A stretch of DNA of 64,000 bases from a virus, in IMG/VR virus record IMGVR_UViG_3300043411_001118, positions 1 through 64,000 of that record. One strand, 5' to 3'. Shown piece after piece: positions 17-52,937 of this stretch. The notes beneath the pieces were generated by a model. That model did not search any database. It was given only the letters and a program-made list of their open reading frames with translations, and was not told the DNA's origin. Made by a program: the position numbers and the translations under genes. Each line of letters begins with the position of its first letter. The first letter of the stretch is position 1.

Positions 17-148
17 CCAACGGAGCTACCAACGGAGCTACCAACGGAGCTACCAACGGAGCTACCAACGGAGCTACCAACGGAGCTACCAACGGAGCTA
101 CCAACGGAGCTACCAACGGAGCTACCAACGGAGCTACCAACGGAGCTA
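17..148. repeat. 12-bp tandem repeat, 11 exact copies
   Basis: Eleven head-to-tail copies of CCAACGGAGCTA fill this stretch. The rightmost copy contains the stop codon of the minus-strand tube gene, so the array starts exactly at that gene's end. Read leftward, one frame is closed by TAG in every unit. The other two frames are open (V-G-S-S or L-V-A-P units) and stay open to the window edge. The array may be the N-terminal extension of the next gene, which lies outside the window. A GGACGATT motif sits at 5-12. Confidence 0.97.
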
Positions 149-835
149 CCAGTTCCCAGAAGCCCCGTTATTCCCTTCAGTCGGGTTTCCAAGCTCATCA
201 GCAATATCTGACCCAGACTTAGACAGATCATTTAAAACATCCTCATAAGCCCCTGGCTTGCCTCCAGGACCAATATCAATTGAACCAATATCAGACGGCA
301 ACCCAGATCCACCTGTTCCAGTATTGATAACCCTAACATGTCTATGGTATGCAAAAGTAATTGTTAGCTTGTGATAACTGTTGCTTGCCTCATATGACAA
401 CTCTTGGGCTACTATAACCTTTGGATAGGTTTCCTGGAACGTCATGCCATATGATGCAAGTCCATCAACACCCAATTGAAAAACTGTAATGTCTGTAACA
501 TAGTCATCGTAGTAACCAACGTAATTGGAATAAGGATCAATCACTTTCGATTGCCAAGCCTCAAAAAATCTTCTTTCGATCATCGACTCGGAACACATAA
601 AAGTTAAATCGAGATCGTCATACATTCCGGTGTATGGCATTTCTCGTTTTGGCCCAGATAGGATGTGTGGAGTAGTTGCGAGATTTCTTCCAGCAAGTGA
701 TGCGCGTTCGCAGCGCATGGCAATCTGCCTAACACTATCACCAAACGGGGATGTGATATACACAACATAATTGCATGGCCGCGCAAGCCCACCCGCTAAT
801 AAATCATTTTTCATTTCATCGACGTTAAATGCCAT
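146..835 (-). CDS. tail tube / tube initiator-like protein (gp19/gp54 family)
   Basis: Probable subunit of the inner tail tube or of the ring that starts it. The 229-aa protein opens with a G-x-ARP segment (residues 15-21), followed by the small-protein pattern of T4 gp19: a CERASL segment, then a D-D-L-D-L-T-F strand and a FFEAWQ helix near residues 75-95. The last 55 residues are Gly/Ser-rich and unlike classical gp19. It abuts the conserved virion gene upstream (stop at 836, start at 835) and gp4 beyond it. gp19 and gp54 share a fold and I cannot decide between them. The family call is by pattern, not alignment. Confidence 0.7.
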
Positions 836-26304: not shown

Positions 26305-26898
26305 TCATTTATCCAATTCGTAGTCTAAGCAGACAAACTCTTTAAACAAATCTTCCTTGGTAGAATTGTTATTAATTTCTCCAGCCCACCCATCAAATGT
26401 ATCTAGCTCAATTTCTGATGGATGGACATCCTCCGACCGTTCGATATCCCTACTTATTTTAATTGGACGGATTAACCAATTTTTCGAATTCTTATTCTCT
26501 AAACCAACAGTATATTCATTGAGAAATCTGAAGTCAGAAACAACATACTTATGTCTCGACATATCAGCATATAGATAATAATCTGCAATTTCGTTATACA
26601 ATTTCCTAGCCCAAATATTCGGATCTAATTTCCTACCGAATTCAGTTCCGACATATTGCATGATAATTCTCGGAGTCAGATAACCAACCCCAGACAAATA
26701 ATTCGGATATCTTTTGTCTTCGACCTCTTTTAAATCCCCATATAATTGGGCATCGGATAGCTTAAACAAATCCCGCGCCAAGTCTTTGACTGGCTGAGCA
26801 AAAGACAATTTTGTATATCCTAACTTCTCTACCATCATATCGGCGAGAGTATCCTTTCCGGAAAATTTTTTATGGCCTAGTAAGTAAATTTTAATCAT
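26305..26898 (-). CDS. deoxynucleoside monophosphate kinase (gp1-like)
   Basis: A 197-aa P-loop kinase of the T4 gp1 family, which phosphorylates dNMPs for phage DNA synthesis. Walker A is GHKKFSGKDT (8-17). FAQPVKDLA and I-M-Q-Y-V-G-T-E-F-G-R form the NMP-binding region. VVSDFRFLNE is the conserved D-x-R-F-x-N-E stretch. It sits in an operon of small genes before the structured RNA region. Confidence 0.85.
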   Translation of the reverse strand: MIKIYLLGHKKFSGKDTLADMMVEKLGYTKLSFAQPVKDLARDLFKLSDAQLYGDLKEVEDKRYPNYLSGVGYLTPRIIMQYVGTEFGRKLDPNIWARKLYNEIADYYLYADMSRHKYVVSDFRFLNEYTVGLENKNSKNWLIRPIKISRDIERSEDVHPSEIELDTFDGWAGEINNNSTKEDLFKEFVCLDYELDK

Positions 26899-27079
26899 CT
26901 AATTCTTCTTTAGTTTCTAAAGTTTTTAATGGACATTCTTTTGGAATTTTAGGATAATCAATTAACTCAATTTTCAATTTGTCACAATAATTTTTCCCCC
27001 ACATAAATGGGATATCTTGTGGATCTGCCATTTGGTATGGGCATTCACTACATTCGGATATAACTAATAATTTTTTCAT
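26891..27079 (-). CDS. small Cys-containing protein
   Basis: A 62-aa protein, SECSECPYQM then YCDKLK and ECPLKT, with four Cys suited to metal binding. It is the first gene after the noncoding structured segment, whose 3' arm ends about 8 nt before its ATG. Confidence 0.55.
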   Translation of the reverse strand: MKKLLVISECSECPYQMADPQDIPFMWGKNYCDKLKIELIDYPKIPKECPLKTLETKEELDD

Positions 27080-27086
27080 AAACTTC

Positions 27087-27371
27087 TCTGAGGATCGTTA
27101 GTCACTACGTTCGGACTTTCAAGAAAGTTACGCTTTCCATCTCGAACAGTGCGAGAAATAACGTGATGGTGTTTTGGAGAACTATCGCCACACCAAAGGT
27201 TATCTCTGACAAAATCACTTCCCACTTCGGCTCAGTCTTTGTTCGATAATTTCACGGAACAAACAAGTTGTTCATCCGAGAAATTTCGGATGAACAATTA
27301 AGCCCACCGAACAGTTCAGTTTCGGCTGAGTGGTTGTTTCGGAAAGTAGCTGCAACCTAACGATCCTCAGA
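27087..27371 (-). ncRNA. putative structured RNA closed by a 15-bp stem
   Basis: There is no gene between 27080 and 27356. TCTGAGGATCGTTAG (27087-27101) and CTAACGATCCTCAGA (27357-27371) are perfect reverse complements and would close a 285-nt RNA. Inside lie further stems: 12 bp at 27268-27279/27286-27297, 7 bp at 27238-27244/27257-27263, 6 bp at 27167-27172/27190-27195 and CCGAA/TTCGG at 27307-27311/27321-27325. The right arm overlaps the last codons and stop of phoH. I cannot match it to RNase P, tmRNA or a group I intron. The strand is assumed from the neighbours. Confidence 0.6.
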
Positions 27372-28034
27372 AAAGTGTCTTTCCTTTTCTATCAGATATT
27401 CTTTAACTATATCCGATCTTACAATATCGTCAAGTGTGAATTTTACTGTGCTGAAACTGCTTAGTTTTGAAATGATATTCATGAATGCATTGAATCCGTT
27501 TCTGTCTTTGTAATGTAGATCGCTTTGATCATAATCTCCAGAAAAGAAGATTCTACTGTTCTTTCCAATTCTGGTAATGATCGAATCAAGTTCGTGGAAT
27601 GTTAGGTTCGAAGATTCATCAACGACCACCAAGCAATTTTCTAATGTAATCCCTCGAACAAATGAAGTAGAAATAACTTCCACAACACCACTAGACTCTA
27701 GAATTTTTAAAGCTGAATCTTTGGAAAATATTTCTGCAAGAATTGCTTTATATGGGAGTGAGTAGATCTCAAGCTTCTCTGCTAATGTGCCTGGAAGGTG
27801 TCCGATTTCTCTTGATGGAACCGCGCTCCGGACAATCACTAACTTCTTATAACCCAATTCCTTTTGTTCGAGTATGCACTTAATACAGAGATATAAGAGG
27901 ATAAAGGTTTTTCCTGTTCCCGCCGAACCGTGTAGAAATAAATTTTTGTGTTCTCGAAAAAATCTGAACACCTCTTTCTGATTGAGTGTTAACGCTCGAA
28001 AAGTCCCTGGTTTAAGAGAACCTAATTTATTCAT
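27357..28034 (-). CDS. PhoH-like ATPase
   Basis: A 225-aa P-loop protein of the PhoH family, common in myophages, with RNA helicase or ATPase activity in some members. It has a Walker A HGSAGTGKT, then V-I-V-R-S-A-V-P-S-R and the Walker B L-V-V-V-D-E-S-S. It ends with F-F-S-G-D-Y-D-Q-S-D. The start at 28034 (MNKLGSLKPGTF) follows AAAGG and overlaps the protease stop by 8 nt; a start at 28145 would overlap it by 119 nt. Its last five codons form one arm of the structured RNA. Confidence 0.85.
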   Translation of the reverse strand: MNKLGSLKPGTFRALTLNQKEVFRFFREHKNLFLHGSAGTGKTFILLYLCIKCILEQKELGYKKLVIVRSAVPSREIGHLPGTLAEKLEIYSLPYKAILAEIFSKDSALKILESSGVVEVISTSFVRGITLENCLVVVDESSNLTFHELDSIITRIGKNSRIFFSGDYDQSDLHYKDRNGFNAFMNIISKLSSFSTVKFTLDDIVRSDIVKEYLIEKERHFSEDR

Positions 28035-29457
28035 CAACCTTTGGACAGTTATTTTCTGTTCGACAATTTTCTCGACAAACGCGCTTTGCAAAACGATCTT
28101 TGGTTTTCTTATCGGCGTTTGGAAATCTCTTGGAACACCGAACAAAACACTTATCTAGTTTCTTCTCTTTACAGGTAATGGGGTTTGCAGATAAAAACAT
28201 GTTATACGCATTGAGTGTTCCCCCAGTTTCGACCTTAGTATTGAGACCAGCGAGTGTAGTAACTCTCTCCAACATCCTATCCAGAATAACGTTTGGTGGT
28301 AGTTTGTTGGCACCATAGTATAGGGCCAACGCACCAGTAACGTGTGGTGTTGCCATAGAAGTTCCGGATATCGTGTTGTATGTGTTTCCTGGCCAAGTCG
28401 ATAGGATGTCTCTCCCCGGTGCAGCCAAATTAACCGATGAACCATAGTTTGAAAATGAAGATAGTTTTCCGGATGGATCAATCGACGCAACTGATATTAC
28501 ATTCCATGAATCGTAATTGGATGGATAAGATGGATCTGTATCGTTGTTTTTTCCATCATTACCAGCCGCAACGACAAACAGGATATCGTTCTGTGCAGCC
28601 TCTTTAATGACCTCAAACATAGGTCCAAAATAATCGCCGCCCCCATAAGAATTGTTAATAACAACGAACGGAATGTTATAAATTTTCTTCATTTTTATAA
28701 CATACTTCACCGCCAAAACAGCGTTATAAATTGCTCCACCGCCGTTGGCTCCTAGAAATTTGAGTGAAAGAATTTTACAATTCCAGTTAACTCCGATAAC
28801 TCCAACCCCATTATTTCCAACCGCCCCAATCGTCCCTGCGACATGCGTTCCGTGTCCATTATCATCCATTGGATTGTTATTATAGCTCCAATAATTCCAT
28901 CCCCGCACATCGTCCTTAAATCCATTTCCATCATCATCAATAAAGTTTCCTGCAATCTCATTTGGTGGAGTCCACACATTCGAAGCAAGATCTGGATGGT
29001 TGTAGTCAATGCCCGTATCGATAACAGCTACTAAACCATTTCCGCAACCATGTGAATAATTCCACGCTGCATTTGCGCCAATTCCTTTATCAGCAACCAT
29101 TCCCCACAAATTGGAAAGACTTGGATCATTTGGTCCTGCTGACACCTGGACATAGTAATTTGGCCAACAATCAAATTGTGATTGATCGACATCCTTACAT
29201 CTACTTTTTTCTGGATCATATGTAACAACCTCTGGTTCATCGTTCACCGAAATGTGCATCCCCAGTGGCTTTGCTTTGACTAATATCATTCCTTCATTTT
29301 GAGATTTGACTTTGAATGTTCCTGGAAGTTTTTTTGATGACATAGCTCCAACACCTTTCTTTGGTGTCAAAACGTACTCATTGTTGTACACTTTAACTTC
29401 AGCCAGAACTAATTGAGGAATTAAAATTGTTAGAAAAAATATGGTTATGAATTTCAT
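28027..29457 (-). CDS. secreted subtilisin-family serine protease (S8)
   Basis: A 476-aa subtilase with signal peptide MKFITIFFLTILIPQLVLA. The catalytic residues are present: D147 in VIDTGID, H202 in NGHGTHVAG, N300 in AAGND and S367 in SGTSMATPH. Residues 20-85 resemble a short propeptide. The C-terminal 50 residues hold seven Cys (CKEKK, CFVRCSKRF, VCRENC, NNCP), an uncommon tail. It is probably exported to the periplasm or outside. The start at 29457 has GGAG 6 nt upstream and overlaps the virion gene stop by 4 nt. Confidence 0.85.
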   Translation of the reverse strand: MKFITIFFLTILIPQLVLAEVKVYNNEYVLTPKKGVGAMSSKKLPGTFKVKSQNEGMILVKAKPLGMHISVNDEPEVVTYDPEKSRCKDVDQSQFDCWPNYYVQVSAGPNDPSLSNLWGMVADKGIGANAAWNYSHGCGNGLVAVIDTGIDYNHPDLASNVWTPPNEIAGNFIDDDGNGFKDDVRGWNYWSYNNNPMDDNGHGTHVAGTIGAVGNNGVGVIGVNWNCKILSLKFLGANGGGAIYNAVLAVKYVIKMKKIYNIPFVVINNSYGGGDYFGPMFEVIKEAAQNDILFVVAAGNDGKNNDTDPSYPSNYDSWNVISVASIDPSGKLSSFSNYGSSVNLAAPGRDILSTWPGNTYNTISGTSMATPHVTGALALYYGANKLPPNVILDRMLERVTTLAGLNTKVETGGTLNAYNMFLSANPITCKEKKLDKCFVRCSKRFPNADKKTKDRFAKRVCRENCRTENNCPKVDE

Positions 29458-29828
29458 TCTTTGCTCCACGCAATGATTAAACAAGATTCTTCAAGAACAG
29501 TACCATTATTAAGAGTAACTGAAAAGTCTACTTGATATCTCATATCAGAAACGAAGTTGGATACCACAACCGAACAAACAGAATTTGTGACCAACTTTGT
29601 GTACTGATCGAGAATCTCTGGTGTTGGAGTAGCCTCCCCAAATTCATTCGCGGAGACGGTAAATGAAAGGATTGTGTTGTTCCCAATTCTTTCCTCAAAA
29701 TCCATTTCAAGTGTATCGGTTTCTCCCTCAACAACATCGATCTGTAGATATTCGGGAATTTGAATTGCTCCACCAGACAACCTTCTAAAAGATATATTCC
29801 CTGGTATTGATTCGCGGTAGATTGTCAT
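29454..29828 (-). CDS. putative virion adornment protein
   Basis: A 124-aa, beta-rich protein with no named domain. It is translationally coupled (TAATG) to the gene upstream, within a leftward cassette of virion-like proteins. The role is inferred from context only. Confidence 0.5.
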   Translation of the reverse strand: MTIYRESIPGNISFRRLSGGAIQIPEYLQIDVVEGETDTLEMDFEERIGNNTILSFTVSANEFGEATPTPEILDQYTKLVTNSVCSVVVSNFVSDMRYQVDFSVTLNNGTVLEESCLIIAWSKE

Positions 29829-32598: not shown

Positions 32599-33771
32599 TT
32601 AGCCCCATACAAAGTCTAAATGTCCGGAAAATGCTGAAGATGCTGGAGTTGCAACACCAGAACCGACTAAGAAATATAATGCCGCACCATCATAAATTCT
32701 TGGTAGACTAGGCATTTCATATAGAAAATTTCTTTCTGCTGCAAGACCCAATGTAGATAAAGGAAACCTTGCGATTTCTTTTATCAATGCAACCGTGTAT
32801 TCGTTTGATACGTAAGAAACTGAATTCTGAATTGTATTAATTTCTGCAATCCCCGCATCCCCGGCCTGAAGAGGCATTTGGTAATTATATTTTCCTGTTC
32901 CGGTTGCGCCTGTATACAAAATATGACTATTTGGTGCCGCAGTTTTTCCGATTGGTAAAACTGTGGGAGTAGCGCGTGAAGCAACTTGCGCGGAATTAGT
33001 ATACCCTAAACTCAAGTTCGGAGTAGCCGCACCCATTGCCGTTGAGTTATTATTAAAATATATCGCTTGTACTCCCGCGCCATTTGTATATCTAGGAAGC
33101 AATCGACTCATTGTATGAGTCCCTGTTCCTGTGCTTGTGATATTAATTGCAGTTCCCGCAATTGCGTTTGCGTATGATGTTGCCAACTTAAATGTTGTAT
33201 CAGATAATTTGATAAAATAATAATCTGTCGCAAGAGCAAGTCCGGCTGGTAGTGTTGTCGTTGTTGTTAAACGAACTCTCGTTCCTGTTAAAATATTGCT
33301 AGGAAAGTTTGCTGTGCTGGTATGAGTACAAATATCTGTTGTATCATCTGCTGTAAATGTATCAGATTCTCCGAGTGTATTTGTTGTTGCATCTGCTGCT
33401 GTTGATGTAACAGGGGTTTTTCTATAAAAACCGATCACGTCAACCAATGCAACGGTACAAGGAACAACCGTTGCCGCCGCACTTACACAAGATCCGTTCA
33501 GTAGATATTTGTAGTAAGTTGGTTGAACTGCTCCACCGGTTTGTAACGTTCCCGCATTTGCTGTTGTATCTTTAACTGATTGATAAACTAAAGTTGAACC
33601 AGTATTAAATAATGCATCGGCTGGTGGGTTTCCTGCACCACGAAATAGTGTGTGCCACTCGTTTGCTACAGCCGCCGCCGTTGGATTGAAGTTTTTACTC
33701 CAATTGGTTTTGAATGTTTGTCCTGCTGTTAGGGCAGAAATAATTGCATCGTTACTAGTAAATCCTGGCAT
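32599..33771 (-). CDS. virion structural protein (MPGFTSND family)
   Basis: A 390-aa protein starting MPGFTSNDAIISAL, then F-N-P-T-A-A-A-V-A-N-E-W-H-T-L-F and a PRYTNGAGVQ stretch. Together with the next gene, which also has an R-Y-T-D-G-K-G-V-Q stretch, it belongs to a paired family of large virion proteins that I recognise from environmental phages. Residues about 130-215 (DTFTADDTTD onward) look like an inserted phage beta domain. Exact location in the particle is unknown. Confidence 0.6.
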   Translation of the reverse strand: MPGFTSNDAIISALTAGQTFKTNWSKNFNPTAAAVANEWHTLFRGAGNPPADALFNTGSTLVYQSVKDTTANAGTLQTGGAVQPTYYKYLLNGSCVSAAATVVPCTVALVDVIGFYRKTPVTSTAADATTNTLGESDTFTADDTTDICTHTSTANFPSNILTGTRVRLTTTTTLPAGLALATDYYFIKLSDTTFKLATSYANAIAGTAINITSTGTGTHTMSRLLPRYTNGAGVQAIYFNNNSTAMGAATPNLSLGYTNSAQVASRATPTVLPIGKTAAPNSHILYTGATGTGKYNYQMPLQAGDAGIAEINTIQNSVSYVSNEYTVALIKEIARFPLSTLGLAAERNFLYEMPSLPRIYDGAALYFLVGSGVATPASSAFSGHLDFVWG

Positions 33772-44875: not shown

Positions 44876-44911
44876 AACAAATTTACTTTGTTGGGAACGG
44901 TGTTTGAAAGG

Positions 44912-44984
44912 TTGCAGGGACGGGATTTGCACCCGTGTTCTACAGAGTATGAGTCTGTCGAGATACTAGCTTCTCCACCCTGCT
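44912..44984 (-). tRNA. tRNA with CAU anticodon (Met or Ile2)
   Basis: Leftward 73-nt cloverleaf: acceptor AGCAGGG/CCCTGCA, D stem GAGA/TCTC, anticodon stem ACAGA/TCTGT with loop CTCATAC (CAU), T stem ACGGG/CCCGT with loop TGCAAAT, discriminator A. The first acceptor pair is an A-A mismatch. An initiator tRNA also has an unpaired 1-72, but the three G-C pairs of the initiator anticodon stem are absent. The 3' CCA is not encoded (CCT). Confidence 0.85.
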
Positions 44985-52010: not shown

Positions 52011-52242
52011 CTTTGGATGGATCTATAAGTCCTTGAATATACTCAAGAAGTACAGAAGAATTGCTCATCTCTCCCCAGGACGATTTCTCGCCTCCGATCT
52101 TCACACACTCCCTATTACAAAAATCTTGAGCGTTTTTTAAAATGAAGTTGGCGCAGGATGTGTATGCCTCGATCAAATTTGGATCGAGCTTCTGAACAGA
52201 TTCATACGAAAATTTCCTAGCTTCTAGACCAACTGCACTCAT
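52000..52242 (-). CDS. hypothetical protein
   Basis: An 80-aa protein with C-A-N-F-I-L-K-N-A-Q-D-F-C-N-R-E-C and an acidic end. It overlaps the i-spanin by 11 nt and the deformylase by 4 nt. Unknown. Confidence 0.55.
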   Translation of the reverse strand: MSAVGLEARKFSYESVQKLDPNLIEAYTSCANFILKNAQDFCNRECVKIGGEKSSWGEMSNSSVLLEYIQGLIDPSKDEV

Positions 52243-52937
52243 GGATTCACCAATTGATATCTAACATTTTTTACTTTTCTTGGAATGAGATATTGTGGAC
52301 CAGTCTTTTTAAACCATCTTCGAAAAATATCTTTCTTAAGATTGCTCAACCGATCAATGAATAACGTTCCAATCAAATGATCCATTTCGTGCTGAACACA
52401 ACACGCCGCCTTTCCGGTGAAGGTTTCTGTTTTTTCTTCACCTGTTCTAGTCTGATATTTTAACGTCACACTATCAAATCTGTTTACCTTTTCAGACCAC
52501 CCATGAAATGACAAACATCCCTCAATGGAAATGATCTCTCCGCTTGTATCAACAAATGATGGATTGATAAATTCTCTTGCGTCTGTGAAATTATCTGAAA
52601 CATCCATCACAAACATGCTCATGTTAAGTCCGACCTGAACCGCCGCAACGCCATAGCCGCCGTATGCATACATTGTGTTTTTCATTCGGTCTAGGCGAAT
52701 TGCAACATCTTCATCAAAGATTGTTACTTTATTTGCAATCGTCCTGAGTGGACCCACTCCCAATTGAGAATTTAACTCCTTACTTGTCAGAGTCAAAATC
52801 TTATATAACTCAACAACGTCTCTTTCATCTGTTGTTAATTTTGGAGTCTCTATTGGAGTCTCTATTGGAGTCTCTATTGGAGTCTCTATTGGAGTCTCTA
52901 TTGGAGTCTCTATTGGAGTCACGGCATTTTCTTGCAT
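52239..52937 (-). CDS. peptide deformylase
   Basis: A 232-aa deformylase, which removes formyl groups from nascent peptides. Motif 1 is G-Y-G-V-A-A-V-Q, motif 2 EGCLS and motif 3 QHEMDHLIG (the HExxH zinc site). The first 30 residues are a T-P-I-E repeat (six units) from a 12-bp tandem repeat, followed by a normal deformylase. Phage deformylases are known from marine myophages. AGGA precedes the ATG. Confidence 0.88.
   Translation of the reverse strand: MQENAVTPIETPIETPIETPIETPIETPIETPKLTTDERDVVELYKILTLTSKELNSQLGVGPLRTIANKVTIFDEDVAIRLDRMKNTMYAYGGYGVAAVQVGLNMSMFVMDVSDNFTDAREFINPSFVDTSGEIISIEGCLSFHGWSEKVNRFDSVTLKYQTRTGEEKTETFTGKAACCVQHEMDHLIGTLFIDRLSNLKKDIFRRWFKKTGPQYLIPRKVKNVRYQLVNP
52843..52920. 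repeat. 12-bp tandem repeat, 6.5 copies
   Basis: GGAGTCTCTATT is repeated exactly six and a half times within the 5' end of the deformylase gene. Because 12 is a multiple of three, it adds T-P-I-E units without shifting the frame. It has the same period as the array at 17-148 but a different sequence. Confidence 0.97.

Follow-up and report, generated by a model that had tools for sequence, protein, structure and literature searches.

Related structured RNAs and regulatory stems

RNAs bounded by RNase III sites are familiar from the stems of rRNA precursors and from the sites in the early transcripts of phage T7. Like these, the element described here, which lies between the phoH and orf62 genes of a T4-like myovirus, has distant arms that form a long stem closing an RNA inside a polycistronic transcript, and the length of the stem suffices for RNase III. 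It differs from them in that one of its arms is the coding end of phoH, stop codon included, and in that cleavage is inferred here. Long-range pairing also serves translational coupling in RNA phages and in ribosomal protein operons. The stem of the element is predicted to act in a similar way by masking the ribosome-binding site of the second gene until the first has been translated, but it additionally closes a folded interior of 250 nt. The tRNA cluster of phage T4 gives rise to small stable RNAs of unknown function. Both these and the element are small RNAs (predicted in the present case) of T4-like myoviruses, but they differ in location and in size and are set apart by description, not by sequence.

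The phage RNAs GOLLD and ROOL, whose function is unknown, often lie near tRNA islands (PMC12286853), and many members of GOLLD are longer than 800 nt (Rfam; PMC12286853). The element resembles them as a predicted phage-encoded structured RNA with no assigned function; however, it measures about 285 nt, has no Rfam match and has no tRNA island nearby. It is rated as belonging, as an orphan, to the broad kind of phage structured intergenic RNAs. Large lytic phages carry almost no spare DNA, and a folded non-coding spacer of 277 nt is therefore a good place to seek phage RNAs. If released as RNA, the element would have a single stem shared by the last codons of a protein, a stop codon, a ribosome-binding site and the boundary of an RNA.

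Genome setting

The window, the whole 64-kb stretch of DNA that was analysed, is part of a virus record of 103,807 bases. The record is a T4-like myovirus distant from the known ones and encodes a gp23-type capsid protein, a sheath protein, a terminase, a DNA polymerase and SbcC-like proteins. Its gp23 major capsid protein (L120:7498-8814) is about 54% identical to those of the best isolates, for example Melnitz and DLP_6. Reading leftward, the gene order around the element is S8 protease, phoH, the element, orf62 and dNMP kinase, and every gene around it lies on the minus strand. phoH (27357..28145, minus strand) encodes a PhoH-like ATPase of 262 aa that matches PF02562 and phrog_170. The first gene past the element, orf62 (26891..27079, minus strand), is an open reading frame for a 62-aa protein with no Pfam or PHROG match and no phage match by tblastn. 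The two genes are separated by a gap of 277 nt, whereas the gaps between neighbouring genes are mostly below 30 nt, and long spacers are uncommon in the compact genome of the record. Its only tRNA gene (44910-44984) lies about 17.5 kb from the element. The subtilase (S8) protease that adjoins phoH (28027-29484 of the window) has a signal-like N-terminus and is odd cargo in a T4-like phage.

Inverted arms and the closing stem

The initial annotation described a noncoding segment bounded by perfect 15-nt complementary arms, and the two arms, TCTGAGGATCGTTAG at 27087-27101 and CTAACGATCCTCAGA at 27357-27371, are indeed exact reverse complements. The element as delimited here comprises 295 bases (27082-27376) between phoH and orf62, with the arm pairing reaching 19 of 20 positions (95%) at 27082-27101/27357-27376. 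This is the sole 19/20 inverted pair within 640 nt across the 64-kb window, and none arose in 30 dinucleotide shuffles. The shortness and imperfection of the arms, together with their wide separation, make an assembly fold-back unlikely. One arm had also been assigned to the end of phoH, and on the minus strand 27357-27371 does hold the final four sense codons of the gene, for S E D R, followed by the TAG stop; the description as noncoding holds for the rest of the segment and fails for this arm.

The closing stem, P1, is formed by a 5' arm of 20 nt (27357..27376, minus strand), which in the predicted fold extends inward to 27349, and by a 3' arm (27082..27101, minus strand) with an inner extension to 27108, which includes the Shine-Dalgarno-like AGAGAAG preceding orf62. 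In the predicted fold P1 has 26 pairs, 20 of them from the arm pair. It is flanked by a weaker outer pairing (27054..27416, minus strand; 27390-27416/27054-27080, 27 nt, 70%), of which a 10-bp portion is present in the predicted fold.

P1 overlaps functional sites on both of its sides. On the phoH side, the C-terminal tail of the protein runs 8 residues past position 254, where 141 relatives have a median of 7, and a truncation or extension of phoH was rejected on account of this ordinary length. The tail region encoded by the P1 arm is not conserved, and as the tail is of ordinary length the arm makes use of a non-conserved part of PhoH. On the orf62 side, the ribosome-binding region has an unpaired probability of about 0 in the predicted fold of the free RNA, and one of 0.3-0.9 when a ribosome is computed to cover the phoH stop. 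P1 would in this calculation hide the ribosome-binding region of orf62 until a ribosome stands at the phoH stop, an arrangement from which we infer a regulatory function. A sigma-70-like promoter match, TTGACG-16-TATAGT (10/12), lies inside phoH at 27406..27433 (minus strand) and has its putative start about 20 nt ahead of P1. Such sites occur at 0.27 per kb per strand and the chance of finding one so close to P1 is about 2%; given this frequency the match may be due to chance.

Predicted fold and strand

The minus (mRNA) strand folds with -111.7 kcal/mol and a shuffle z of -7.4, and in its best register the segment ranks first in stability among 12,740 windows of 300 nt, which supports the earlier proposal of a strong, compact fold closed by a stem. 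The plus strand reaches -102.7 kcal/mol (z -7.0) and is weaker by 9 kcal/mol. Stripped of its arms, the interior is moderately exceptional (z -3.8 on the minus and -3.4 on the plus strand), and a residual z of -3 to -4 is reached by other windows in the genome. Since the interior is moderate by itself and the fold of the plus strand is nearly as stable, much of the fold signal comes from the closing stem. The near-equal folding also means that the strand has to be chosen from gene order, G-U pairs and the weak promoter match. There are 15 G-U pairs in the minus-strand fold versus 6 in that of the plus strand, but a share of about 14% G-U is also usual in a random fold, so the difference is weak as evidence for the strand.

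In the predicted fold P1 closes the P2 domain with its three hairpins, the long P3 hairpin and P4, all given here for the minus strand. P2 (27216..27348; mean pair probability 0.76-0.96) opens with a 9-bp stem (27348-27340/27224-27216) and is predicted to contain hairpins at 27326-27306, 27297-27268 (12 bp) and 27265-27236 together with a stem at 27304-27299/27234-27229. P3 (27150..27211; mean pair probability 0.91-0.97) is predicted to pair 27211-27199 with 27162-27150 and to end in an apical stem at 27195-27190/27172-27167. P4 (27109..27147) is a predicted hairpin of 27147-27139/27116-27109 and an apical stem, with mean pair probabilities of 0.97-0.98. The internal hairpins noted in the initial annotation are present, among them the 12-bp hairpin at 27286-27297/27268-27279, and the CCGAA repeats that it had pointed out number six inside the element (both strands) where 117 per 64 kb would predict about 0.5, an enrichment of about ten-fold.

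Searches for families and relatives

The segment had been called unlike any nameable RNA family, and the Rfam scan of the window agrees, as it matched only the tRNA at 44912-44984. At E values up to 10 Rfam returned noise alone for the element (RT-2 with 12.8 bits against 40), and it gave no match at the gathering score to GOLLD, ROOL or any other Rfam family. The group I and group II intron models gave no match to the element at the gathering score or at E up to 10, and an intron was rejected because the Rfam intron models showed no catalytic-core match. Of the earlier interpretation, the strong stem-closed fold outside Rfam stands, and the suggestions of a catalytic RNA or a decoy gained no positive support.

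blastn of the element found nothing in phages and nothing in plasmids. Neither a DNA comparison of the whole record with 44 related viral records nor IMG/VR scans with PhoH, a 390-aa protein of the window, dNMP kinase and the major capsid protein (gp23) turned up a homologue of the element. The PhoH relatives, gathered from IMG/VR by profile and degenerate-motif scans, are at most 55% identical among the matches listed. Among these listed matches, an inverted repeat of at least 11 nt enclosing the phoH stop occurs at none of 203 loci from other phages, and of the 185 relatives in which the following gene can be read, 141 have phoH abutting or overlapping it. Scans of IMG/VR and GTDB with three exact DNA patterns of the junctions gave chance matches alone, and the best of these, L275, was rejected as it lies within a coding gene. 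Because no homologue was found in the phage, plasmid, IMG/VR and GTDB searches, the element is, as far as these reach, an orphan.

Proposed function

The favoured explanation, held tentatively and with less than even confidence, sees in the element a structured RNA between two cistrons with a closing stem open to cutting by the RNase III of the host; phoH translation would compete for the bases of that stem, which would also gate the start of orf62. It is proposed that the leftward operon transcript of phoH, orf62 and dNMP kinase carries the element, and that its two ends zip into the long P1 and so close a multi-branched fold of about 250 nt. Host RNase III would then cut P1, as suggested by stem length only: the 20-bp arm pair and the 26-pair predicted stem offer a duplex at least as long as the roughly 20 bp looked for in a substrate. 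No RNase III gene is encoded in the record and processing would therefore need the host enzyme. Cleavage would leave phoH and orf62-dNMPK on separate messages and free a compact RNA of about 250 nt. By melting P1, ribosomes that reach the end of phoH would postpone this cut, so that phoH translation and RNA release would compete, and the same stem would control access to the orf62 start. The released RNA might, speculatively, act in trans or by binding. Cutting P1 would also deprive phoH of its stop codon, and this cost counts against the model.

The computed parts of this model are the arms, the outlying stability, the way in which P1 overlaps both the phoH stop and the ribosome-binding region of orf62, and the absence of a match to any known family. 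Counted in its favour are the stability, the unique arms, the long gap, the G-U pairs, the gating of orf62, the promoter-like site and the ordinary PhoH tail; counted against it are the lack of a homologue, the near-equal plus-strand fold and the z of -3.8 for the interior alone. It is quite doubtful that the element represents a new class, in which one helix, with the last codons of phoH on one side and the ribosome-binding site of the following gene on the other, would render translation, cleavage and RNA release mutually exclusive.

Alternative explanations

The closest rival, in itself unlikely, is a translational switch acting only in cis, whereby orf62 is translated only once ribosomes complete phoH and the interior is a spacer whose folding draws the two ends together and which yields no separate RNA. 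The computed opening of the orf62 ribosome-binding region, from near 0 in the full fold to 0.3-0.9 with the phoH stop covered, speaks for such a switch. However, overlap is the usual way in which phages couple genes, one that most of the phoH relatives follow, the 250 extra bases would be unnecessary, and the Shine-Dalgarno match of orf62 is weak by eye.

It is improbable that the fold is a chance or neutral one in a spacer of possibly decaying, functionless sequence. The orphan status of the element, an interior z of only -3.8 and the residual z of -3 to -4 attained by other windows of the genome are consistent with this, but the arm pair is unmatched in 30 shuffled windows, the segment is first among the 12,740 windows, and long spacers are rare in so compact a genome.

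Less probable again is that the element functions as DNA, as an invertible segment, a transposon-like insert, a retron-like element or a replication site, with the RNA fold as a by-product. Invertible promoters and small inserts are of a size comparable to arms of 20 bp with an interior of 255 bp. The arms would pass as inverted terminal repeats (19/20), and the two strands fold nearly equally. The element is, however, present in a single copy, no target duplication is visible by eye in its flanks, and the invertible segment, the insert and the retron are weakened by the absence of tyrosine (PF00589) and serine (PF00239) recombinases and of reverse transcriptase (PF00078) from the whole record. 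A retron and an inversion by a phage-encoded recombinase were rejected on these grounds; inversion by a host enzyme is possible.

An RNA transcribed from the plus strand, antisense to the ends of phoH and orf62, is very unlikely. Its z of -7.0 and a weak promoter match at 27044-27071 point towards it, but the surrounding genes are all on the minus strand, its fold is 9 kcal/mol weaker than that of the minus strand, and the promoter match is just 9/12. Hardly credible, finally, is a small gene in the 3' half (27076..27231, minus strand, 51 codons), which has an open frame and a typical 4-base overlap (ATGA) with the start of orf62 but lacks an ATG start, and which was rejected as probably not a gene for its poor codon usage (codon score -0.045, in the 1st-5th percentile of coding stretches) and want of any relative found.

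Further features of the record

The 390-aa protein encoded at 32599-33771 shares 61-84% identity with proteins on 22 IMG/VR contigs; its DNA resembles that of two records, a phage of 642 kb and one of 45 kb annotated as a podovirus, and it looks like a module swapped among unrelated phages. It is not the capsid protein but a widespread one, and PhoH is absent from 18 of the 19 other records that carry it. The T4 late promoter TATAAATA has 0 sites in the 64-kb window versus 4.6 expected by chance, which suggests a different late promoter or avoidance. A perfect 12-bp tandem repeat, TACCAACGGAGC, occupies positions 15-151 of the window with 11.4 copies (100%) and sits at the 3' end of the tail tube gene (146-835, minus strand); the windows across it give the second strongest RNA fold in the 64 kb. 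Another perfect 12-bp tandem repeat, TTGGAGTCTCTA, with 6.7 copies at 52841-52920, is found within a peptide deformylase-like gene (52239-52937, minus strand), close to the start of the gene.
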